Assembly (NCBI GenBank): GCA_002713165.1
Contig: PAVT01000013.1
Span: 1 to 32,153 of the forward strand
Source: Verrucomicrobiota bacterium
Lineage (GTDB): Bacteria > Bacteroidota > Bacteroidia > Flavobacteriales_E > Vicingaceae
Reading direction: 5' to 3'
DNA length: 32,153 nt
Under the pieces are notes generated by a model. That model made no database searches. It saw only the letters and a list, made by a program, of their open reading frames with translations, and was not told the origin of the DNA. Both the position numbers and the translations under genes were made by a program. Positions within the stretch are counted from its first letter, which is position 1. Each line of letters starts with the position of its first letter. Below are positions 7,354 through 31,702 of this stretch, in pieces.

Positions 7354-9969
7354 ATGAAAAAAGTTTTATCAATAATCAGTTTTTTTTTAATACTGTCTGT
7401 CTCCTTGTTTGCAACACACAACAGGGCAGGAGATATAACCTACAAACACATTACTGGTTTAACATACGAAATATCAGTTTCAATTTTTGCAGATCCGAAC
7501 AGTCCTGCCTTTAGAAACCGTGATGAAATTGAAATTAACTGGGGAGATAATTCAGGAATTGATTCCGTTGGAAATCCGATTGTAGGGCCAGACATACCTA
7601 ACAGGCCAAATGTAAAGAAACGGACTTGGATTGCACGACATACCTTCCCAGGGCCTGGGAGCTTTCGTATACGTGTTGAAGATAGAAATAGAAATGGAGG
7701 AGTTGACAACATTTCAAATTCAATCAATGTTCCTTTTACCGTTGAAACTTTGCTTAGAATACCATTGGATAATCAGAATAATAACTCTGTAGTATTGCGC
7801 AATGATCCAATTGATGATGCCTGTTTTGGGGAGCTCTATATTTATAATCCTGGAGCTTTCGATCCGGACGGAGATTCGCTAGCCTATGAATTGGCGTCTA
7901 GTTTAGGGACAGGAGGGTTTCAAGCACCAGGTTTCAACTTTCCATCGGCATCAATAAGCCTTGTTGTAGATCCGATTAGTGGAGATCTTATATGGAACAG
8001 GCCCGACGAGGTAGGGCTATATAACCTTGCGATACGAATAAAAGAATACAGAAATGGTGTGCTTGTAGGTAGTGTGTTGAGAGATATGCAGATACAGGTA
8101 TTTCCTGGATGCAATAATCGCCCTCCCAACATACTTGTTAATCCTTTTACTTGTGTTGAAGCTGGAGAAAGTCTTCGGCTGCAAATAAGAGCAGAAGACC
8201 CTGATGCAAATGATGATGTGAGTTTAAGTATTACAAGCGAAATTTTAGAGGCACCCATTGGAAGTAGAGTTGCTTTTAATTCGAGTATCCCAAATAACCC
8301 TACAAACGGCACATTGATTTGGAACACTATATGCGATGATGTAAGGGCTAACCTATACAATGTAAGTATTAAGGCAGAGGACGATGCAACACCTATAGTT
8401 CTGGCTTCGTTCCAGAACACGACAGTGAAAGTAGTTGCTCCAGCACCAGAAAGTTTGATGGTTTCTCCCATCAATCAAAACTTGAGACTAAATTGGATCA
8501 ATAGCAAGTGTCAGAATGCCTTGGGGTATAATATTTACAGAAGGATAGATTCAACAGGATTTGTCCCTGACAGCTGCACCACTGGAGTCCCTAATGAAAT
8601 AGGATACACGAAAATTGCGGAGATCGAAGGATTGGACACCACTAACTTTATAGATGATAATGGTGGAGATGGGATGATTCCCGGTAGAAAGTATTGTTAT
8701 TTAGTTACTAAGTATTTTGTTGATGGAGAAGAGAGTTTAGCTTCTGAAGAGGTGTGCGCACAAATTCAAAAAGTTGTGCCTATAATTACACAAACATCTG
8801 TTGTTCAGACAGATGATAATAAGGGGCAAATCCAATTAAAATGGTCTCCACCAGAAATTTTTGATAGTATTCTTTTTCCACCTCCTTATCGCTATTTGAT
8901 TTATCAGCACGAAAACAATGATCTTGTAAAATTAATCGATTCTACCTTAACCCTTACTGACACCTCAATTTTGGTTGATGAATTGAATACAACAAATAAT
9001 ATCTTTTCTTTTAATGTTGATTTATTAAGTTTAGGTTTAGGCAGGGTTATTTTAGGAAAAACGGCCAAGGCACAATCAATATTTTTAAATATTGTGCCAA
9101 CTGACAACGTATTAAAGTTAAATTGGGATGTGAATGTGCCATGGAGAAATGAGCAATACATTATATTTAAAAGGAACAATATTTCAGGTCTGTTTGATTC
9201 AATAGCAACCACAACAACTACCTTTTTTAATGACTCCAACCTAACCAATGGAATTGAATATTGTTACTACATCAAATCAATAGGGAGATATGATTTTGAA
9301 AAACTGAATGATACTATTGTCAACTTGTCACAAATTTCATGTGCAATTCCAGAAGACAACATTCCTCCTTGTTCTCCTCAATTTTCGATAACTTCAGATT
9401 GTGAAGAGGATAGTTTAAGAGTTAGTTGGGTCCAAAAAAATCATTCTTGCAGTGATGATGTCGTAGGGTTTCGAATATACTACAGCTCTAAGGAACAAGG
9501 TGATTTTAGCCTATTATCTGAAGTCAACTTGAGTGAAAGGTCATTTTTGCTACAGAACAGAGCAGTTGCAGGATGTTACTCTTTAAGAGCTATTGACTCT
9601 TCTAAGAATGAGAGTGTAGATTTTACGACTAATTGTGTTGAGTTTTGCCCTGTGTATGAACTGCCAAATGTATTTACTCCGAACAATGACAACTTAAATG
9701 ATTTGTTTACCCCAATTAAGCCTTACAGGGATGTAGATTCAATCAATTTAGTTGTATACAATAGGTGGGGAGAAATTGTCTTTGAGACGTCAGATCCAGA
9801 TATAAATTGGAATGGGGTGCATCAAAGTTCAAATAAGATTTTAAGTAGTGGAGTGTATCTTTATTCTTGTGATGTATTCGAAAAGAGTTTATTTGATTCT
9901 GCAATAGTTCGTAAATTGAAAGGAACCATAACAATCTTCAATCCAGAGGCCCCTATAAAAACCAATTAA
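7354..9969 (+). CDS. Giant secreted protein with FN3-like modules and a T9SS type-B sorting domain
   Basis: An 871-residue exported protein. A signal peptide (1-20, ending SVSLFA) precedes THNRAGDITYKH, a beginning shared by many gliding-motility-associated proteins. A beta-rich region (about 25-255) follows, then a cadherin-like segment (about 255-355), then about four fibronectin-III-like modules recognisable by LRLNW, IQLKW, LKLNW and LRVSW strands. Residues 772-871 form the type-B C-terminal sorting domain (CHU_C type): NVFTPNNDNLND, YNRWGEIVFE, WNG and SGVYLYSC. Such domains direct secretion through the T9SS, with the protein kept at or released from the surface. The function is unknown; adhesion or motility is only plausible. 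The gene sits between mqnC and ribE, with a 15-base gap before it and none after. A run of nine T in the signal-peptide codons is a possible slippage site. Confidence 0.88.
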   Translation: MKKVLSIISFFLILSVSLFATHNRAGDITYKHITGLTYEISVSIFADPNSPAFRNRDEIEINWGDNSGIDSVGNPIVGPDIPNRPNVKKRTWIARHTFPGPGSFRIRVEDRNRNGGVDNISNSINVPFTVETLLRIPLDNQNNNSVVLRNDPIDDACFGELYIYNPGAFDPDGDSLAYELASSLGTGGFQAPGFNFPSASISLVVDPISGDLIWNRPDEVGLYNLAIRIKEYRNGVLVGSVLRDMQIQVFPGCNNRPPNILVNPFTCVEAGESLRLQIRAEDPDANDDVSLSITSEILEAPIGSRVAFNSSIPNNPTNGTLIWNTICDDVRANLYNVSIKAEDDATPIVLASFQNTTVKVVAPAPESLMVSPINQNLRLNWINSKCQNALGYNIYRRIDSTGFVPDSCTTGVPNEIGYTKIAEIEGLDTTNFIDDNGGDGMIPGRKYCYLVTKYFVDGEESLASEEVCAQIQKVVPIITQTSVVQTDDNKGQIQLKWSPPEIFDSILFPPPYRYLIYQHENNDLVKLIDSTLTLTDTSILVDELNTTNNIFSFNVDLLSLGLGRVILGKTAKAQSIFLNIVPTDNVLKLNWDVNVPWRNEQYIIFKRNNISGLFDSIATTTTTFFNDSNLTNGIEYCYYIKSIGRYDFEKLNDTIVNLSQISCAIPEDNIPPCSPQFSITSDCEEDSLRVSWVQKNHSCSDDVVGFRIYYSSKEQGDFSLLSEVNLSERSFLLQNRAVAGCYSLRAIDSSKNESVDFTTNCVEFCPVYELPNVFTPNNDNLNDLFTPIKPYRDVDSINLVVYNRWGEIVFETSDPDINWNGVHQSSNKILSSGVYLYSCDVFEKSLFDSAIVRKLKGTITIFNPEAPIKTN

Positions 9970-11579: not shown

Positions 11580-14500
11580 CTACCTAAGGAGGGTAACACT
11601 TCCTTTAATCAAACCCTGGGATTCATCATTAATGTCTAAAAGGTAGTAATATACACCATCTTCGTAATCACCTCCATCCCAGTCATTTTTGTAGTCGTTG
11701 TCCTCATAAATGAGTTCTCCCCAACGGTTGAATATCTGGATAGTGCTTCCAGGATATACTTCGAGCAAATCAAAACGGAGAAAGTCATTTATTCCGTCTT
11801 CATTTGGTGTAAACACATTTAGTCGATCAATTACAATGTTACAGGCCTCTGCTGTGCCGATTGGGCCAAATTTACATACGGCCTCAGGACCTACTTCGCT
11901 GTTCACTGCTCTCACTTGAAGCTTGTATTGTTGACCTGATATCCAATGATGAAGATTATACAATCCATTCGCTCTGTGCCACCCTCCTGTATCATTATTT
12001 ACAACAAGGTCACTCTCATCACGAATTTGTCCAAACCGATCTATACCTCGCACCTGATTCCAATCAGGACCATCATCGGCTGGCCAGAAAAAGCGTTGTT
12101 GTACAACACCATCTTTAAATGTTACCTCAATACACTCTACTCTAGGAGGAACAAGTTTGTCAGCTACATTGATAAAAACAGAGTCAGCGCTTTTGCAAAC
12201 GGAATTCGCAGTGGTTTTCGTGACTTCTAGTTTGTATCGGCCCCTTTCAGAGTTGGTTAGGCTCGGACTTGTTTCTCCCGGAATGATTTGTTTATCCAAA
12301 AACCATTGGTAAGTCATTAGGTCAGGAGCTCTATAGGTAACAGTGTTGTTCATGCGGTATTGTTCTCCAGGGCAAATCGTTGAGTCACGAGCATCAAGTT
12401 CAACCTCAACTTTTTCTCTTCTTACTTTAAATGGTATTGGATCCACAACACAATCATTGATCGTAAAGCCAACAGCCAACTCAAATTCTCCACCTGAACC
12501 AAAAGCTATTTCACCTACGTCAAGTGTGTCATTTTTGATCTGACTGTTTGAACTACCACCGATTGGAATAGTTTTAGGCGGTAAACCATTTGGTTGTCTT
12601 TGTGTAAACTCCCACCTAAAATCAGTAGCATTTTGCAGGTCTGGATGGTCACTTAAGTCAATTACAGGCCAATCTTCATTTGGGCAAAGCTCAATATCAT
12701 CGATAACTACTTCTGGAACATTAAAGCTTTCTATAAAAACGGTTCGATCATCGTCTGAGCAGAATTCATCGTTAAGTTTTGATGCTCCAGGACTTGACCA
12801 TGGGAAGTTTCTTACAACTTCTATGGTCCACCAGCCTTCAGGGAAGTTGCTTAAATCGGTAAAACGGTGTTCAAAATTGTATTCCGATAAATTCCCATCT
12901 GATGCTCTTCTTTGATCCGTCCATTGCACAGGAGCATTAAATGAGGGACCGCGGAAAGAGTATCTGGTGATGAATGCATCTTTAAGCAGTTGATTTGTTT
13001 CCTTGTTTGATTTACCGTCGAATGGTTTAATTATCGCAGCTTCGGCGTCCCAACATATTTTTATGGGGTCATCTCCCTCGAAAATATAGGTATAATCAGT
13101 ATTTACGGTAATAGGAATTACAATATTTTCATCGATCTCTTGTCCGCATTCATTAATCATGGTGTTTCCATCATCTCCTTTTTTGGTTACTATGGAGTAA
13201 TTTCCAGGACCTATATCCTGCACAGTTGTTATAGCAAACCGATTGAATTGTCCGAAAACGTTTGCACCAACAGCCTCCACTGTAAGGTCATAGGAGTTTT
13301 TATCAATTGAAACCAGCGGATTCCCATTTGGATCAATGCGGTACATTCTAAACTCAGGAGTTTCACCTTTGGCGTGAAGACTGCTCTCAAACATGGGGTC
13401 CGATACATCAAATACAAATTCTTTGGATGCACAATCGAATTCCCAACGGCCATCACCATTCAAAACGGCATTTGGAGCAGTAAAAGTTGGTTGAACAGTA
13501 TTGCATCTTTTGTCAATGTTGATCCGGATGTCTCTAAATGTTTCGTTTATTGTTCGCTCATCCAATTGGAGCTCAATTTTTCCATTGTTTAAAACCTCCT
13601 TGTAGAAAGGTCTTCGTTCCGTTATTTTTATCGTAAACACACCGGTAAAGCTGCTAACATTTTTACCCAATACACTCAAGTCGGGGGTGAAACTTAACAC
13701 ACCTGTGTTGGAGTCCAATTCAAGGGCACTAAATACATTCACAAAATCAGGTGGCTTAACAGGAAAAGGAACTGAGGATGAAAATCCAGCAGAATATTCC
13801 ACGGGCCTACCAGTATTGCCTGCACCATCTTTTCTTGTAGGCGTCATACTAAACACCAAGCGATCTTTAACAAGATCAGTGCCTATTATGGTTTGATGCT
13901 TTCCAGCATTAGGATCATTGGTTGGGTTGTTGATTCTTTTAACCAACAATGTTTGATCATTGTCAAGTACCCGCAATTTAAATTCTTGTGGAGTACCATC
14001 GCAAAAAGGAAAAATAGGGTGTGGATTGTTCCATTGCGCAGGAGTATTGTCCCCAGGAGCGGTCCAACTCGTGAAGGCCGGATTTCCTGTACCATCTGTT
14101 TTGGATACTAAACAAACAGTAGTAAATTTTGAAAGTGTAGCAAAAGTACTTTTGCGCTCCACATTTTCAGTTCCTTGCGAAAAAAACTGAATACCATTGA
14201 GAGGCGAATTTGGAGGAAAAAAAGGTTGCACTGCATATTGAACTATCCAATCATCACGCTGTGGTAAAAGGATTCGATCGCTTCTGTAGTATTGAAATTC
14301 GGTGCAAGAAGGCTGAGGAGAAGTAAGACAAGGTGGGCCGTCATTTTGGCCTCTCCCACCAAATTGGTTCAATGATATAGCAATCGGCGGATTTTTATGT
14401 TTTTTTGTTGTGCCGTAGCTATTTCCTGCAGTTTTTTCAGTCCTTAACAACAAGGTTTTTGTGCTGGCAAATGGAGCGTTAAAAAAGCAATCACGATAAA

Positions 14501-14675
14501 ATTTATAAGTAAATCTGTAAGATCTTAAGTTTGCACATTGTGCCTCTCCGATTGCAGGATCATATTCTACCAAAATCTCCCCCGCAGCATAGGATTCAGA
14601 TTGAGCGTTTGATTTCAACCCCGAGAAAAGGAAGCAAATCAAAAAAATGCTAGCTATTAGTTTCAAATTCTTCAT
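11580..14675 (-). CDS. Giant secreted protein with Ig/FN3-like modules and a T9SS type-B sorting domain
   Basis: A 1031-residue exported protein. A signal peptide (1-24, ending GLKSNA) is followed by an N-terminal region with AAGEILVEY and YRFTYKFYRDC, which echoes the AGDITY start of the other type-B protein in this window. Long beta-rich regions follow. An Ig-like segment with STICPGEQYRMNN and YQWFLDKQIIPG lies around 760-835, and an FN3-like segment around 838-935. Residues 953-1031 are the type-B (CHU_C) sorting domain: NVFTPNEDGIND, FNRWGELIYED, WDGG and DGVYYYLLD. It should be exported by the Sec and type IX systems to the cell surface or medium. No catalytic motif is visible; a structural or adhesive role is possible but unproven. 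It is transcribed divergently from lepA and has its own terminator. Confidence 0.87.
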   Translation of the reverse strand: MKNLKLIASIFLICFLFSGLKSNAQSESYAAGEILVEYDPAIGEAQCANLRSYRFTYKFYRDCFFNAPFASTKTLLLRTEKTAGNSYGTTKKHKNPPIAISLNQFGGRGQNDGPPCLTSPQPSCTEFQYYRSDRILLPQRDDWIVQYAVQPFFPPNSPLNGIQFFSQGTENVERKSTFATLSKFTTVCLVSKTDGTGNPAFTSWTAPGDNTPAQWNNPHPIFPFCDGTPQEFKLRVLDNDQTLLVKRINNPTNDPNAGKHQTIIGTDLVKDRLVFSMTPTRKDGAGNTGRPVEYSAGFSSSVPFPVKPPDFVNVFSALELDSNTGVLSFTPDLSVLGKNVSSFTGVFTIKITERRPFYKEVLNNGKIELQLDERTINETFRDIRINIDKRCNTVQPTFTAPNAVLNGDGRWEFDCASKEFVFDVSDPMFESSLHAKGETPEFRMYRIDPNGNPLVSIDKNSYDLTVEAVGANVFGQFNRFAITTVQDIGPGNYSIVTKKGDDGNTMINECGQEIDENIVIPITVNTDYTYIFEGDDPIKICWDAEAAIIKPFDGKSNKETNQLLKDAFITRYSFRGPSFNAPVQWTDQRRASDGNLSEYNFEHRFTDLSNFPEGWWTIEVVRNFPWSSPGASKLNDEFCSDDDRTVFIESFNVPEVVIDDIELCPNEDWPVIDLSDHPDLQNATDFRWEFTQRQPNGLPPKTIPIGGSSNSQIKNDTLDVGEIAFGSGGEFELAVGFTINDCVVDPIPFKVRREKVEVELDARDSTICPGEQYRMNNTVTYRAPDLMTYQWFLDKQIIPGETSPSLTNSERGRYKLEVTKTTANSVCKSADSVFINVADKLVPPRVECIEVTFKDGVVQQRFFWPADDGPDWNQVRGIDRFGQIRDESDLVVNNDTGGWHRANGLYNLHHWISGQQYKLQVRAVNSEVGPEAVCKFGPIGTAEACNIVIDRLNVFTPNEDGINDFLRFDLLEVYPGSTIQIFNRWGELIYEDNDYKNDWDGGDYEDGVYYYLLDINDESQGLIKGSVTLLR

Positions 14676-16665: not shown

Positions 16666-18012
16666 CTAGTGTTTGTCTAGCTTCCAGCGTATCCAAACGC
16701 CAAAGTTTTGACTTTGGAAACGACTTGTATTGTCTGTTCTGAATGATCCTAAATCTGCTTCATAACTGTATGATGCACCCAACACTAATGAATTGTTTAA
16801 GACGAAGCCAACTTCTGCAGTGCTTGCTTGTCCTATAAACACCGGATTAATTTGTGGGGCATTCTCTTTAAGCGTGCTATATTGCATGCTGTTCGGATTA
16901 AAATAGGTGCCATTCTGCGAAAGCGCATAGTTAACAATTACTCCGGAACGTATGCCAGCAGTAATTTTTCCAAAGCGTTTTTCAAAACCGACAGTAATTG
17001 GCAATTGAAGTCTCCTGAAGGTGTTTCTCACGCTTACATTTTCTTCTAGAGTGTTTGTGTTTTCCTCTACTCGAGCATTGATGTCTTGTCGAATTAAGAT
17101 GACTGGCTTGCCGTTTTCATCATAACTATCATTGATGACCGTGTAGGTAGTGTCATAAAAAATTTGATAATTACTCTCAGTTGAGTTGTTTGAATAGCTT
17201 ACATTCTCCGAAAACTCAGATATTCTTAATCCAATTCCTACTCTAAAGGCTTTGTAATTCTTTATCAATTCTAAGCCATAAGTAGATTTTCCTGTAGCTT
17301 TTATATCAGCATTTTGCGCTTCGGTTGGAGGCTCATTAAACTCAAGTGATCTAGAAATTCTTAAAGATTGCTCAGCGATAATGGCAACGTCAATACTTTG
17401 CTTTTTTTGTTTGATGTTTTGCATTTCATAAGGACTTATTTCAGTCAGCAAAGGAGTTCTTAAGGGAGAGTATTCATAATCCGCATATATCAATTCACGT
17501 TTTAGTTGATCTATGGATGGGTTTACTACAGTATAAGCGTACTGTTCATTTTCTTGTCTTTCTCTTGAGTCAAATTTATTTCGAACTACATTGTTCTGTG
17601 AAGGAGCGTTTGAAATTTTGTTTTCTGCGAAAGTATTGTTGGATTGATGTGAATGTCCAATTTTAGTGTCAGTGTTATTCAGGTCATAAAATTCTTCAGC
17701 ATATGTTTCAGCTGGTTGAGTCAAGTTCGGTGGGGTCTGGAGAGATAGAATCGCAGTAGTGTTCCCGAATAGTTTTAAAGTGAAATTCGATTGCTTTACA
17801 ATAGGATTGTTGCTTGTGAAGAACAGCAAAGGAAGTACTGCAATCATTAGCCCAATGTTGCCAATAATACCATTAAATCTAAGAAATCGCGTGTAATTGC
17901 GGTCTAAAATGGAGGCTAGCCTTGACCACAATTGAGGATTGTAAGGATACTCGACATTTAAACCCTCCTTGAAGAATTCATCTACCTCATTCTCTCTATT
18001 AAACCAACCCAT
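16666..18012 (-). CDS. Candidate dual membrane-spanning anti-sigma factor with C-terminal beta-barrel-like domain
   Basis: A 448-residue protein 6 bases downstream of an ECF sigma gene. Residues 1-45 are hydrophilic and include YNPQLWSRLASILD (24-37), resembling the short sigma-binding heads seen in Bacteroidota. Residues 48-66 (GIIGNIGLMIAVLPLLFF) form one transmembrane helix. A polar linker rich in Asn, Gln, Ser and Glu follows (about 67-230). The rest (about 233-448) alternates polar and hydrophobic residues in strands such as AFRVGIGLRISEF, RLQLPITVGFEKRFG and NFGVWIRWKL, as in small outer-membrane barrels. This order (cytosolic head, inner-membrane helix, periplasmic linker, outer-membrane barrel) is that of the Dma anti-sigma family described in Bacteroides thetaiotaomicron. 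There is no cleavable signal peptide. Anti-sigma function is inferred from architecture and neighbourhood; a plain barrel protein with an N-terminal anchor is the alternative. Confidence 0.65.
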   Translation of the reverse strand: MGWFNRENEVDEFFKEGLNVEYPYNPQLWSRLASILDRNYTRFLRFNGIIGNIGLMIAVLPLLFFTSNNPIVKQSNFTLKLFGNTTAILSLQTPPNLTQPAETYAEEFYDLNNTDTKIGHSHQSNNTFAENKISNAPSQNNVVRNKFDSRERQENEQYAYTVVNPSIDQLKRELIYADYEYSPLRTPLLTEISPYEMQNIKQKKQSIDVAIIAEQSLRISRSLEFNEPPTEAQNADIKATGKSTYGLELIKNYKAFRVGIGLRISEFSENVSYSNNSTESNYQIFYDTTYTVINDSYDENGKPVILIRQDINARVEENTNTLEENVSVRNTFRRLQLPITVGFEKRFGKITAGIRSGVIVNYALSQNGTYFNPNSMQYSTLKENAPQINPVFIGQASTAEVGFVLNNSLVLGASYSYEADLGSFRTDNTSRFQSQNFGVWIRWKLDKH

Positions 18013-18018
18013 ATTGCC

Positions 18019-18567
18019 TTAAATTGCTTGGTTAAATAATTCTAATTTGGCTTGAAGTTTTTTTCTAGCCTGACTTAGATGCCATTTTGAAGTGTTTTCA
18101 CTCATCTCAAGTAACTCTCCAATTTCTCTATGTTTAAAGCCATCAATTGCATAAAGGTTAAAAACTTTTGCGGTGAGCACCGGCAATTCACGAATCATTT
18201 TGAGTAGATACTCACATTCAAGTTCAGCTTCTTTTGCATGTATTGAAAAGGGCAATTTAGAGACACTTAAATCATCAAGGTAACTTACTCTTGATTGTTC
18301 TCGTTTTTGTTTTCTGTATTCATCAATAAGGTGATTGACTGCTATCCTTTTCATCCAAGCAACGAAAGAGTCTTTATTGTTAAATTGAGAAAGGTTACTT
18401 AGGATTTTTAAAAATATTGAGTTGAGGCTTGAACCTGCTGAATCATAATCATTTTTGTATCGAATGCAAATGCTCATTAAATACGAAAACACTTCTTTGT
18501 ATAACTCATTTTGGGCAGATCTTTTACCCTGTAAACAAGCATCGAGTATTTCCTTCGTGATTTTCAT
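18019..18567 (-). CDS. ECF-type RNA polymerase sigma factor
   Basis: A 182-residue sigma-70 family factor of the extracytoplasmic-function type, containing only regions 2 and 4. Region 2 (about 8-90) contains FVAWMKRIAVNHLIDEYRKQ, the -10-binding 2.3/2.4 segment. Region 4 (about 118-172) contains LPVLTAKVFNLYAIDG and a helix-turn-helix, HREIGELLEMSENTSKWHLS (146-165). It would redirect RNA polymerase to a small regulon when released from its anti-sigma factor. It is the middle gene of a tight leftward trio: 18 bases after the PKD-repeat protein gene and 6 bases before the candidate membrane anti-sigma gene. That spacing argues that all three are one system. The target promoters are unknown and none is recognisable in the window. 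Confidence 0.92.
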   Translation of the reverse strand: MKITKEILDACLQGKRSAQNELYKEVFSYLMSICIRYKNDYDSAGSSLNSIFLKILSNLSQFNNKDSFVAWMKRIAVNHLIDEYRKQKREQSRVSYLDDLSVSKLPFSIHAKEAELECEYLLKMIRELPVLTAKVFNLYAIDGFKHREIGELLEMSENTSKWHLSQARKKLQAKLELFNQAI

Positions 18568-18585: not shown

Positions 18586-21369
18586 TTACTGTTTTATAAT
18601 TCTTTTTACAACAAATTGGTTACTGTTCCATAAACGTATAAAATACATGCCTGGTTGTATATGACTTAATTCAATCGTATTATTAGCTTCATTTACAAGT
18701 CCTTCTGCCTTAATTTTGCCATTGACATCTAAAAGTTCATAGGCCATTGAATTGATTAACATGTTTGACTCAATTTGGATTGAATTTTTTGTTGGGTTTG
18801 GGTAAATATTCATGTGCTTCTCTTTATCACTTTCCTCGTCCAATCCAACAAATGAACCATCAAGAACTCTCAGCAAGAAGCCTTTGTTTTTTAGTAAGTA
18901 ACCGTTTGAATCAAGGCCTACCTCTTCGCAATAAGATGACATGCAGCCCAAATCGTCGTCACTTATATACAAACAAATATTGTATAAGCCAAAATTTTCA
19001 TATTTGTGTGTAGGCGTTCTACCATTTGAAGTTTCTCCATCACCAAAATTCCACAGATAATTATGACTATTCCTTTTTGTTGAAGTATTGATTAGATACA
19101 GGGTACCTCTTTTTGATGTGTCTAACGCTATTTGATATTTGGCCTGACAAAGACGTTGAACACTTATCTCAATAGTGTCATGAAAAACATTCACACAGTT
19201 CCCATCTTTCCCAAAAACAGTTTGTCTGACAACATACAAACCATTTTTATCATATACATGTTGCGGGTTTTCAATACTGTCAACTTTCCCATCTCCAAAA
19301 TCATAGAAAACTTTTTCATAAAATGATGCCGTATTCGCAAATCTTACAGTATCTTCTTTAATTGAGTATTCGAATCCAGCAAGGCATTTTGGAGGGACAG
19401 TCACTGCAATAGATTTGCATTGCGTTTTTTGACAGTTGTTTCTTTCATTAAAAACCGTCTGACACACTTGATAAGTCCCCGAATTCTTGAAAATATAAAC
19501 GGGGTTAGATTCTGATGATGAATTGCCGTCTCCAAAACTATATTCTAGCTGATTGTAATTTGTTGCTTTATTTAAAATGAAGAGACTGTCTTGAACTACA
19601 ATTGCATCAAAATTAGGATCACATATTTTGGGCAAAACAATGCTTACATCTAAACATTTTATGCTTTCGCAATTGTTGGTTGTATCAATTACGGTCTGAC
19701 AAATTCTGTATGTTCCATTACGACTATAGGTGTGCTTTGGATTGCGATTAGTAGTAGAAAAACCATCTCCGAAATCGTATCGACAATAGTTATTGTTGGA
19801 AGAAAGATCTCTGATTGATACACTGTCTGCAACTATAGTTACACTAAAATTTGCTAAACATCTTGGTGGTATAAATACGTTGATACTGTCTTCGAAAAAA
19901 CTTTCACAATTTGTGAGTTTATTTACGACCTTTTGGCGTACAAGATAAGTGCCACTGTTTTGGTATAAATGTTCGGGATTCTCAATAATTGAACTATCTC
20001 CATCACCAAAATAATAAGTAATAAAATCATAAAAACGCGCATTATTCTTGAACTGGACAGTTGGCCCTGTTTGTGTATAATTAAAGCTTGCAGTACATTT
20101 TGGAGGAAGTACAATGTTTATTGTTTTACAAAGTGTATCTCGACAATTGTTCACTGAATTTTTAATGAATTGACATACTTGTAAAGGTCCATTGTTCGAC
20201 AAGATGATTTTAGCATTTGGATGTGATAATGTAATGCCATTGCTTAAGCTGTATACTATTGAATTGTAGCTCTTTGCTTTATTTAAAATTTCAAGTGTAT
20301 CAAGATTTAAGCTGAGATCGAAGTCTGCCAAACAAGCTTTGGGTACGTTAATGGTAACTGTATCACAGGTGGTTTTTGTGCAATTTGTTGTTGCGTTGTA
20401 AACTGTTTGACAAACTGAATAAACACCATTTTTTTTATAAGTATAAATAGGATTATCAACAAACGAACTGTCCCCATTGCCAAAGCTGTAGAAGATGTTT
20501 GTAAAGTTTTTAGCAGTGCTTAAAACATGAAGATTGGAATCATTTACGATTGCTTTAAACCCAATTTGACAAATTTTTGGAGCCTTTATGCGCACCGTGT
20601 CAGCATAACTGCAAGAGGTATTTGATGTAGAATCGAAAACACTCAATGTTACAGTAAAAAGTCCTGAAGATGAATATCGATGTTTTGGGTTAAGATTTCC
20701 AAAAGTAGATTTGCCATCTCCAAAGTCCCAATGTATAGAGCTTGAATTTGAAGAAGCAACAATGCCTTTAAAATGCATACTATCTCTACTGAGCGAGGTA
20801 TAATTAAACTTAGATTCACAGTAGTTTACGTATAATGTATCTGAAGTAATACATGAGGCGGCACCGGGGATATAGGCCTTTAACTTTACAGGGTATATGC
20901 CTGTTTTTTTGTAATTGTGTGTTGGATTTTGAAATGATGAAAAGGTGCTGTCACCAAAGTCCCATTTATAGGTATAATTTGAGATAGGGGTGGTTTGATC
21001 AGTAAAAATCACCGAATTGGTTTTATCGATACTGAAGTTAAATGCAGCATCACAATTAGAAGAAAAATTGGAAACGATAATAGAGTCACAAATTGTCGAG
21101 GTGCAATTGATGCTGTCGGAAATGGTGAGACATACTTGAAAAATCCCTGAGTTTTGATAGGTGTGAACAGGTTCCTTCAACATGGATGAGTCTCCATCAC
21201 CAAACTTCCAAGAATATTGCGTATTGCTACTAGCTCCTAAAGAAAGATCATAAAATGAGGCTATTAGTCCTGAATTGTTGTACGAGAAAAAAGCAGAACA
21301 AGATTGGGCACGCGTACTCAGAGTACTTAATATAACTACAGCATAAAAGAAAAGAATTCTTATCGACAT
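18586..21369 (-). CDS. Secreted ten-PKD-repeat protein with a T9SS type-A sorting domain
   Basis: A 927-residue exported protein. A signal peptide (1-21, ending STRAQ) is followed by ten tandem PKD modules of about 80-85 residues. They are recognisable by repeated FGDG-type turns such as WKFGDGDSS, WDFGDSTFS, YSFGNGDSS, YYFGDGDSS and WNFGDGETS. Module five is degenerate, with YSLSNG in place of FGDG. Most modules carry Cys near the start (PKCLA or PKIC) and an NC....C pair near the end, so disulphide bracing is likely. Residues 853-927 form the type-A sorting domain (MNIYPNPTKNSIQIES ... GMYFIRLW ... KRIIKQ), marking export through the type IX system. PKD arrays usually serve as spacers or adhesive stalks; no catalytic domain is present. 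It is probably the first gene of the sigma/anti-sigma operon. An AGGAGG sits only two bases before the ATG. Confidence 0.9.
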   Translation of the reverse strand: MSIRILFFYAVVILSTLSTRAQSCSAFFSYNNSGLIASFYDLSLGASSNTQYSWKFGDGDSSMLKEPVHTYQNSGIFQVCLTISDSINCTSTICDSIIVSNFSSNCDAAFNFSIDKTNSVIFTDQTTPISNYTYKWDFGDSTFSSFQNPTHNYKKTGIYPVKLKAYIPGAASCITSDTLYVNYCESKFNYTSLSRDSMHFKGIVASSNSSSIHWDFGDGKSTFGNLNPKHRYSSSGLFTVTLSVFDSTSNTSCSYADTVRIKAPKICQIGFKAIVNDSNLHVLSTAKNFTNIFYSFGNGDSSFVDNPIYTYKKNGVYSVCQTVYNATTNCTKTTCDTVTINVPKACLADFDLSLNLDTLEILNKAKSYNSIVYSLSNGITLSHPNAKIILSNNGPLQVCQFIKNSVNNCRDTLCKTINIVLPPKCTASFNYTQTGPTVQFKNNARFYDFITYYFGDGDSSIIENPEHLYQNSGTYLVRQKVVNKLTNCESFFEDSINVFIPPRCLANFSVTIVADSVSIRDLSSNNNYCRYDFGDGFSTTNRNPKHTYSRNGTYRICQTVIDTTNNCESIKCLDVSIVLPKICDPNFDAIVVQDSLFILNKATNYNQLEYSFGDGNSSSESNPVYIFKNSGTYQVCQTVFNERNNCQKTQCKSIAVTVPPKCLAGFEYSIKEDTVRFANTASFYEKVFYDFGDGKVDSIENPQHVYDKNGLYVVRQTVFGKDGNCVNVFHDTIEISVQRLCQAKYQIALDTSKRGTLYLINTSTKRNSHNYLWNFGDGETSNGRTPTHKYENFGLYNICLYISDDDLGCMSSYCEEVGLDSNGYLLKNKGFLLRVLDGSFVGLDEESDKEKHMNIYPNPTKNSIQIESNMLINSMAYELLDVNGKIKAEGLVNEANNTIELSHIQPGMYFIRLWNSNQFVVKRIIKQ

Positions 21370-21408
21370 AACCTCCTGTTAATCAAGAGACGAACAATTG
21401 TCCCAAAA

Positions 21409-21422
21409 AGTTGGTTTCAACT
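21409..21422 (-). terminator. Weak possible terminator after dxs
   Basis: On the minus strand AGTTG-AAAC-CAACT is followed by TTTTGGG. The stem is only 5 bp, so this is a weak candidate for separating dxs from the PKD-protein gene. The 91-base gap otherwise shows nothing clear. Confidence 0.3.
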
Positions 21423-29974: not shown

Positions 29975-31702
29975 TTAGTTTTTATCTTCTATTTTAACTT
30001 TTTCTCCTTTTTCAAAAACAATGGTTTTTAACAGATCGTCTTGCTTTTTCCCATAGAACTTAAAGGTCCCGTGCGGAACACCTTCTACATACGATTTTTC
30101 ACTTTCTAAAGTGCCAATTTCGTACCAGTTGATGACTTTGCCATCAAGCCGCCCATTTTTATACGTAGCGCTCATCATGGGTATGCCATTTTCATAAAAA
30201 CTTCTCCAGTTACCCTCTTTTTTACCTTCACGGTAATTGGTTTCATCCCGAAGACCCTCATTTGCGTACCAACTTTTTCTGACCCCATTCAACACCCCAT
30301 TTAAATATGTTTCCTCTAATTCTAATTTGCCCTGAGTTGACCAATACCTCCAGGTGCCGTTTTTTACGCCTTCAAGAAATGAACCCACATAACGTTGCTT
30401 ACCATCTGTATACCAGCCTTTCCAATGGTCGTTTTGTAGGCCTCGAGAATAACTCCCAGCATCTTGCGCTTGCCCATTAGAATAATACGTAAACCATGGA
30501 CCTTCCTCAAGATTTTCTTTATAAACTCCTTCCATGATTAATGTTCCGTTTTCATGCCATATTTTCCATTGACCCTCTTTCATGTCATTTACGTAGTCGC
30601 CAACTTTCCATTTGCTTCCATCTTTGTAAAAGAATTCCCAACTTCCTTCTCTTTTTCCATTTAAATAATTGCCTGTGGATAAAAGTTGTGTAGACTCCTT
30701 ATAATAATATTTCCATGTTCCACTCTGTTTGTCATCCATAAAGTATCCAGACATATCTTTCTGTCCAGATGGATGAAACCACTGCCATTCTCCGGACTTC
30801 ATTCCTTTTTTAAATTTTCCAATCTCTGCTATTTTTCCTTCTTTGAAATAAGTGGTGGTTAAACCATCTTTATGCCCTTCATTGAAGGTCTCCTCTCGAT
30901 TAAGTTGTCCTGAAATGAAATAATGACGCCATGGACCCGACTTAAGTCCTTCTTTATATTGACCTTCTGATTTTTTGTTTCCGTTTGGGAAGAAGGTCAC
31001 CCAATCTCCATTAGGTTGGTTATTTTTAAACGTTTCTACAGAGATCAAGACTCCTTCGCTGTTCCATTTTTCCCAACGTCCCTCTCTTTTTCCTCCATCA
31101 TACCTTCCAGATTCTTTGGTCTTGCCATTGCTGTGATAAATCGTCCATACGCCCGACCCGTTTAAAATCAGTTGCTTTCCCACTTCATCGAAAAAACTCT
31201 CGATCAGCTGTTCGTCATCTGTATAGGTAATGAGCATCTTTATTTGTCCATTCGGATGCCATTCTTTCCACTGCCCCTTGCGTTGGTCAATTTCATACCA
31301 TCCTTCTCGTTTTTTATTCCCATCTGCATAATTAAACGTCCACAAACTGTCTTTGTAACCTTTTTTATAGTAGCCAGTTAGCTCAACCTTGCCGTTTGGA
31401 TAGTATGTGGTGAACAGCCCATCTCGTTTGGCATCAATAAATGAACCTTCTTCTGCGAGTTCACCATTTTCAGTAAAATGTTTGTAAGGGCCATGAAACT
31501 CACCAAATTTAAAATTGACCAGTTGAATCAATTGTCCTGATTTATTGTAAAACTTCCATTCGCCATCTTCGATGCCTCCTTGGATGAGGTTGCCTTCTGC
31601 TTTTGGTTTTCCATTTTGCCATTTATAGGTCGTGAAGCTTTGCGCTATTGAAAAGTGGGTAGATAAAGCAAAAAGAAATAAAGTGGATAGGAGTATTTTC
31701 AT
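29975..31702 (-). CDS. Secreted MORN-like (YwqK family) repeat protein
   Basis: A 575-residue exported protein. A signal peptide (1-20, ending HFSIA before Q21) precedes about 21 repeats of roughly 23-25 residues, each with a core like GxWxxYxxNGxxxxxGxYxxGxxxG. Examples are REGRWEKWNSEG, KSGEWQWFHPSG, KEGQWKIWHENG and KNGTWRYWSTQG. These are MORN_2/YwqK-type repeats, which form a long beta-sheet ribbon. One repeat (about 160-185) is irregular and contains FDEVGKQLILNGSGVW, a variant I recall from related Bacteroidota proteins. There is no type IX sorting domain, so it probably stays in the periplasm or at the outer membrane. Databases often label such proteins YwqK-family antitoxins, but nothing here supports a toxin-antitoxin role. 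It stands alone, with a -7 box upstream and a strong terminator downstream. Confidence 0.85.
   Translation of the reverse strand: MKILLSTLFLFALSTHFSIAQSFTTYKWQNGKPKAEGNLIQGGIEDGEWKFYNKSGQLIQLVNFKFGEFHGPYKHFTENGELAEEGSFIDAKRDGLFTTYYPNGKVELTGYYKKGYKDSLWTFNYADGNKKREGWYEIDQRKGQWKEWHPNGQIKMLITYTDDEQLIESFFDEVGKQLILNGSGVWTIYHSNGKTKESGRYDGGKREGRWEKWNSEGVLISVETFKNNQPNGDWVTFFPNGNKKSEGQYKEGLKSGPWRHYFISGQLNREETFNEGHKDGLTTTYFKEGKIAEIGKFKKGMKSGEWQWFHPSGQKDMSGYFMDDKQSGTWKYYYKESTQLLSTGNYLNGKREGSWEFFYKDGSKWKVGDYVNDMKEGQWKIWHENGTLIMEGVYKENLEEGPWFTYYSNGQAQDAGSYSRGLQNDHWKGWYTDGKQRYVGSFLEGVKNGTWRYWSTQGKLELEETYLNGVLNGVRKSWYANEGLRDETNYREGKKEGNWRSFYENGIPMMSATYKNGRLDGKVINWYEIGTLESEKSYVEGVPHGTFKFYGKKQDDLLKTIVFEKGEKVKIEDKN

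Follow-up and report, generated by a model that had tools for sequence, protein, structure and literature searches.

Which system is formed by an ECF sigma factor and the 448-residue protein encoded directly beside it, and which genes would it control? The two genes lie in a window (the whole stretch of 32,153 nucleotides that was analysed) from the incomplete genome of a Flavobacteriales bacterium (1.77 Mb, 66.7% complete). The nearest named relative among the carriers of the module is Acidiluteibacter ferrifornacis (Flavobacteriales), in agreement with the first-pass annotation, which had placed the pair in a different, probably flavobacterial lineage. That annotation had also proposed that the pair is a dual membrane-spanning anti-sigma (Dma) system. 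To our knowledge, Dma proteins have been studied in only a few Bacteroides and Phocaeicola genes. The family was defined by a sigma-binding N-terminal domain, a membrane helix, a disordered tether, a C-terminal barrel and an ECF21 sigma gene alongside, and its authors place it in the Bacteroidota at large (PMC13088901). Because the family spans the phylum and pairs of this kind are frequent throughout the class, a Dma instance outside Bacteroides is unsurprising. Most of the new information is carried by a PKD-repeat partner protein and a promoter motif, both absent from the first-pass annotation.

The pair belongs to a minus-strand operon of three genes, encoding in order the PKD protein, the ECF sigma factor and the Dma-like protein, with intergenic gaps of 18 bp (PKD/sigma) and 6 bp (sigma/448-residue protein). 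The two reading frames of 448 and 182 residues were found where the first-pass annotation had put them. The features are as follows:

16666..18012, minus strand: Dma-like protein, 448 aa, predicted to span both membranes (ORF, hydropathy, AlphaFold2, Foldseek and head profile)
18019..18567, minus strand: ECF sigma factor, 182 aa, of the 'LN' clade (Pfam and sigma tree)
18586..21369, minus strand: PKD-repeat protein, 927 aa, first gene of the operon, with a signal peptide-like start and a T9SS type A C-terminal sorting domain (profile matches; conserved partner)
21371..21377, minus strand: Shine-Dalgarno-like AGGAGGT before the PKD gene (read directly from the sequence)
21390..21414, minus strand: predicted promoter CCAACT-N16-CGT, with the -35 element at 21414-21409 and the -10 element beginning with CGT at 21392-21390, 20 nt before the PKD start

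The dxs gene lies upstream of the operon in the same direction, after a gap of 91 bp, and lepA, on the opposite flank, points towards it. The sigma/partner pair recurs across the family and the phylum with its order and architecture unchanged, and therefore the arrangement is not due to chance. Moreover, the sigma stop codon overlaps the start of the partner in four loci (L003, L004, L007 and L009). An Rfam search of the window gave no match. Elsewhere in the window, a 575-aa protein (29975-31702) with a signal peptide-like start contains many MORN/YwqK-like repeats (GxxxGxWxxYxxNG). Two large secreted proteins outside the operon (7354-9969 and 11580-14675) have C-terminal ends resembling the gliding-type (type B) T9SS sorting domain.

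Pfam and NCBIfam searches of the 448-residue protein returned no family match; its architecture was read from hydropathy and structure prediction. The strongest hydrophobic stretch begins at residue 48 (mean hydropathy 2.09), and a single strong helix covers residues 48-66. Two AlphaFold2 runs, with 10 and then 18 homologues, both gave helices at 6-18 and 26-64 (the head plus the membrane helix), disorder at about 63-202, and eight barrel strands (206-224, 234-253, 256-297, 303-347, 350-367, 391-404, 409-420 and 429-445). The barrel was modelled at a pLDDT of mostly 70-97, and of mostly 80-97 in the deeper run with 18 homologues; in this run the tether (about residues 63-202) stayed below 50. 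The head was modelled at a pLDDT of only 50-62. A Foldseek search against the PDB returned outer-membrane barrels, including the 8-stranded OmpW, OprG, OmpA, NspA, Ail and OmpX. The layout is thus a head (1-45), a membrane helix (about 47-66), a disordered tether (about 65-205) and a barrel (206-445). Both the one membrane helix and the C-terminal barrel had been read correctly from the sequence before; the linker, put at about 165 residues, was about 141 residues by structure prediction. The barrel is predicted to sit in the outer membrane, and the N-terminus in the cytoplasm.

Strands 3 and 4 of the barrel are about twice as long as is needed to cross a membrane, and form a hairpin (256-347) that is predicted to be extracellular by the usual barrel topology. 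The tip of this hairpin, IFYDTTYTVINDSYDENGKPVILIRQDIN (284-312), showed the highest conservation within the protein in a comparison of eight family members: 14 of its 29 columns reached at least 75%, with a mean of 0.71 against 0.43-0.59 for the strands. The tether is 140-203 residues long in most relatives, and up to 379. The earlier proposal that the linker spans the periplasm holds in so far as the tether of ~141 residues can reach across 20-25 nm, but only when extended to 40-50% of its contour length. For the tether in this state, a worm-like-chain model yields an estimated force of about 8-13 pN, so that a pull on the head through envelope spacing or barrel movement would be physically plausible.

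The relationship with the known Dma proteins was examined using profiles. A Bacteroides finegoldii record (L085), which carries genes for a sigma factor, a barrel protein, DUF4943, DUF4858 and a nitronate monooxygenase, served as the Dma2 reference; its barrel protein was taken as the Dma2 orthologue by synteny, because this order matches the described das2-dma2-BT_1557-1556-1555. A profile of 11 heads was aligned by hhalign with three Bacteroidales Dma heads, one of them from the Dma2 operon, at a probability of 93.4 (E 2.6e-7); whereas two sigma-protein segments of equal length, used as controls, gave only 0.2 and 0.4. The barrel profile matched the Bacteroidales Dma barrels at a probability of 91.6, and the head profile had no significant match among solved structures. 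Since the head profile matches and the controls do not, the 448-residue protein is Dma-like by descent of its head and by architecture: it has a homologous head, a single membrane helix, a long disordered tether and a C-terminal barrel. Judged from sequence, the head is homologous to the Dma heads and might likewise bind its sigma factor. Direct binding and inhibition of the sigma factor, and control of vesiculation, are also among the characters of Dma proteins. No FecR domain was detected in the 448-residue protein by Pfam, and the neighbouring genes are lepA, dxs and the PKD gene rather than those of a FecR-type system.

The 182-residue protein beside it is an ECF sigma factor according to Pfam (Sigma70_r4_2, 8.7e-14; Sigma70_r2, 3.3e-8; Sigma70_ECF, 2.3e-11). 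However, it does not group with the Das2 orthologue of B. finegoldii. A tree built from 57 sigma factors places it inside a 28-row group with a support of 100/100, and this group has N at the usual Q of region 2.2, mostly with L before the N; whereas the Das2 orthologue and its Bacteroidales relatives lie outside the group and have an ordinary region 2.2 sequence. The region 2.2 glutamine is thought to contact the core polymerase. In the window sigma this region reads SLNSIFLKIL in place of the usual D..Q..F. The proposal of a Dma system is therefore correct for the architecture and the head homology, but its reading as simply the Bacteroides system is not supported, as the sigma clade, region 2.2 and the promoter (see below) differ. 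Several further observations concern these sigma factors. The replacement of the region 2.2 glutamine by N, mostly within an 'LN..(F/Y)LK(I/V)' motif, marks a large clade of Bacteroidota ECF sigma factors. In genome G011, the sigma gene of L006/L093 has a frame of only 106 aa from the first listed start despite its full-length homology, owing to a stop, a frameshift or an assembly error. The window's own genome has two more ECF sigma genes (L078 on contig C54 and L079 on C47), each followed by a single-helix protein with a Dma-like head; the L079 sigma is the closest of this genome to the Bacteroidales Das group.

The first gene of the operon distinguishes a subgroup within this clade. The C-terminal sorting domain of the PKD protein was identified by both PF18962 (Por_Secre_tail, 1.3e-12) and TIGR04183 (1.5e-11), and the T9SS core protein SprA is present in the same genome (SprA_N, 7.5e-32); the PKD protein is therefore a predicted T9SS cargo. 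The PKD-sigma-Dma trio is found in the family of the window (f1) and in a second uncultured Bacteroidota group (L127 and L140-L143). Among the relatives of both groups with a readable upstream gene, one or two PKD proteins like that of the window directly precede the sigma gene in every case where the sigma identity is at least 46%. These trio sigmas form one supported clade (11 rows, 100/93). The culturable relative Acidiluteibacter ferrifornacis has all three genes of the trio (L133). A PKD protein also comes first in two family members with more distant sigmas (L101 and L102), and in none of the loci from the same search with a sigma identity below 40%. The flanks of the trio are variable, with dxs in several loci and quite different genes in L090, L091 and L140-L143. 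Near-complete relatives contain about 105-118 T9SS cargo genes, and we estimate that a cargo gene would lie beside the sigma gene by chance in roughly 3-4% of loci, and not as a rule. Secreted proteins with T9SS-like tails were also seen upstream of the sigma gene, at a larger distance, in four loci of the sigma clade from other families (L115, L119, L121 and L124); the cargo link may thus be wider than the PKD subgroup.

The upstream regions of the PKD genes share the motif CCAAC(C/T)-N16-CGT. It was found in 17 of 21 such regions, including 14 of 15 within the family group of the window, and the spacer was exactly 16 in all of them, with no match at spacings of 12-15 or 17-20. Shuffled upstream regions gave a chance rate of 0.0002 per region, and across the 225 kb of module loci the motif matched 13 times, as often as there are PKD-start sites in them. 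Of 23 further loci assumed to belong to this sigma clade, 20 have the motif ahead of the sigma gene, and none has it in antisense. It is absent before all three Bacteroidales Das-type sigmas and before the sigmas of L097-L099, of which L097 and L098 belong to another sigma clade. The promoter lies directly before the sigma gene in the loci that have no PKD gene, and before the PKD gene in those that have one; most duplicated PKD genes have their own copy. The motif thus goes together with this sigma group, as would be expected under autoregulation. In several of the PKD promoters of L091, L092, L093 and L094, no more than 7-9 nt separate the end of the CGT from the start codon, so that near-leaderless transcripts would result.

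A search of eight module genomes placed the motif in intergenic DNA immediately ahead of a start codon at 11 PKD genes and two other genes. Outside the operon, the strict pattern ACCCAACY-N16-CGTNNT gave no more matches than a reversed control, and a wide regulon is therefore not claimed; both results suggest that the regulon is narrow. Matches before a glycosyltransferase gene in G036 (L172), a GtrA-like gene in G004 (L191) and a secreted protein gene in G007 (L197) were set aside as single cases that may be due to chance.

These results point to a Dma-type circuit in which a dual-membrane sigma/anti-sigma pair regulates its own operon and a T9SS surface protein is the main output, a reading that we consider probable. 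The gene order, the architecture, the head homology and the promoter motif with its distribution were computed; we infer the binding of the sigma factor by the head, the use of the motif by this sigma, the membrane topology and the activation step. The cytoplasmic head of 45 residues would hold the ECF sigma factor, the membrane helix would serve as the inner-membrane anchor, and the disordered tether would cross the periplasm to the barrel in the outer membrane, with the long hairpin exposed outside the cell. A trigger at the barrel, such as a surface ligand, the state of the barrel or the envelope spacing, would lead to release of the sigma factor, probably after cleavage of the tether or a pull on it. 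The free sigma factor would then read the CCAAC(C/T)-N16-CGT promoters, above all that of its own operon, which would raise the levels of the PKD surface protein exported by the T9SS, of the sigma factor and of the anti-sigma factor.

What the barrel would sense can be read in two ways. The circuit might be a closed gauge, in which the exported PKD protein binds the barrel hairpin, and the occupied or empty state is relayed through both membranes to the sigma factor; the cell would then count its own surface protein (or its T9SS output) and adjust the production. We regard this gauge as rather unlikely; it was suggested by the PKD linkage and the conserved hairpin, and by these alone. A hairpin exclusive to the PKD loci was considered and rejected, as a related one occurs in L097 and L098, which have no PKD gene, and that of L140-L143 is altered; the cases of L097 and L098 weaken an exclusive link between the hairpin and the PKD protein. 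Alternatively, the 448-residue protein could be an anti-sigma factor in which the barrel is only an anchor, or a general gauge of outer-membrane stress (misfolding, the BAM or the LPS state), and the PKD protein would have no sensing role. The chances of this second reading are about even. It is a narrower version of the circuit, and competes with the gauge for the PKD protein, not with the circuit. A Phocaeicola vulgatus pair of the same architecture responds to envelope stress caused by the toxin BcpT (PMC9308784), and many clade members without an adjacent PKD gene still keep the partner protein and the promoter. However, the conservation of the hairpin tip suggests that in this subgroup the protein has a specific partner at the surface, and the persistent PKD linkage would be left unexplained if stress alone were sensed.

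Two other explanations would affect the circuit itself. The PKD motif could be read by another ECF sigma factor, so that the trio is co-regulated and not autoregulated. AAC/CGT is the general form of ECF promoters, which means that another ECF sigma could read the motif, and further ECF sigma genes with partners of a similar kind are present in the genome. However, the motif accompanies this sigma clade from family to family, and at loci lacking a PKD gene it is located directly in front of the sigma gene; neither the Das-type sigmas nor those of L097 and L098 are preceded by it. Its restriction to this clade argues for the cognate sigma and makes the alternative quite improbable. Even less credible, with only a slight chance of being correct, is an ordinary outer-membrane barrel beside an unrelated sigma factor, with the N-terminal helix as a signal peptide that has a long n-region. 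Pfam names the barrels of the relatives only as OMP_b-brl, and they are publicly annotated as porin family or outer membrane beta-barrel proteins; but the head is conserved and homologous to the Dma heads, a conserved n-region of 45 residues is not a signal peptide, and the sigma gene adjoins in nearly every locus examined, often with translational overlap.

The analysis has consequences beyond this locus. A large separate clade of Dma-like systems is placed across many Bacteroidota families, and its promoter consensus with fixed spacing makes the regulons predictable from sequence. For one subgroup, the main predicted output is a T9SS surface protein from the same operon, which is a candidate ligand or output; this offers a testable link between outer-membrane sensing and the expression of T9SS cargo.

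Control of an ECF sigma factor by the state of the outer membrane, through an anti-sigma factor, is known from FecA-FecR-FecI. That system uses a separate TonB-dependent receptor and a separate anti-sigma factor; whereas the window system has the barrel and the head in one chain, and no adjacent TonB receptor. PorXY-SigP with PorA of Porphyromonas gingivalis likewise ties a T9SS C-terminal-domain surface protein to ECF sigma control, but its signal passes via a two-component system (PMC7712824); in the window one polypeptide would link the surface and the sigma factor, and the cargo is a predicted target. In the pair M0N98_03760-61 of P. vulgatus, an ECF sigma gene likewise precedes that of an anti-sigma factor which is predicted to reach through the periplasm to a barrel in the outer membrane, and the sigma gene is induced when the system is active (PMC9308784). 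The P. vulgatus response lengthens the LPS O-antigen and includes NigD-like genes (PMC9308784); whereas the predicted targets here are PKD T9SS cargo. A close likeness also exists with Dma1/Das1, Dma2/Das2 and Dma3 of Bacteroides thetaiotaomicron (PMC13088901), which share the head with a homologous profile, the membrane helix, the disordered tether, the barrel and the adjacent sigma. Compared with them, the window protein is too divergent for a single-sequence search, no NigD or PUL genes are adjacent, the sigma factor belongs to another clade with the 'LN' signature in region 2.2, the promoter differs, and the operon is led by a PKD protein predicted to be exported by the T9SS. The window system is a sister system of the Bacteroides Dma, with its own operon in which the T9SS PKD protein comes first.
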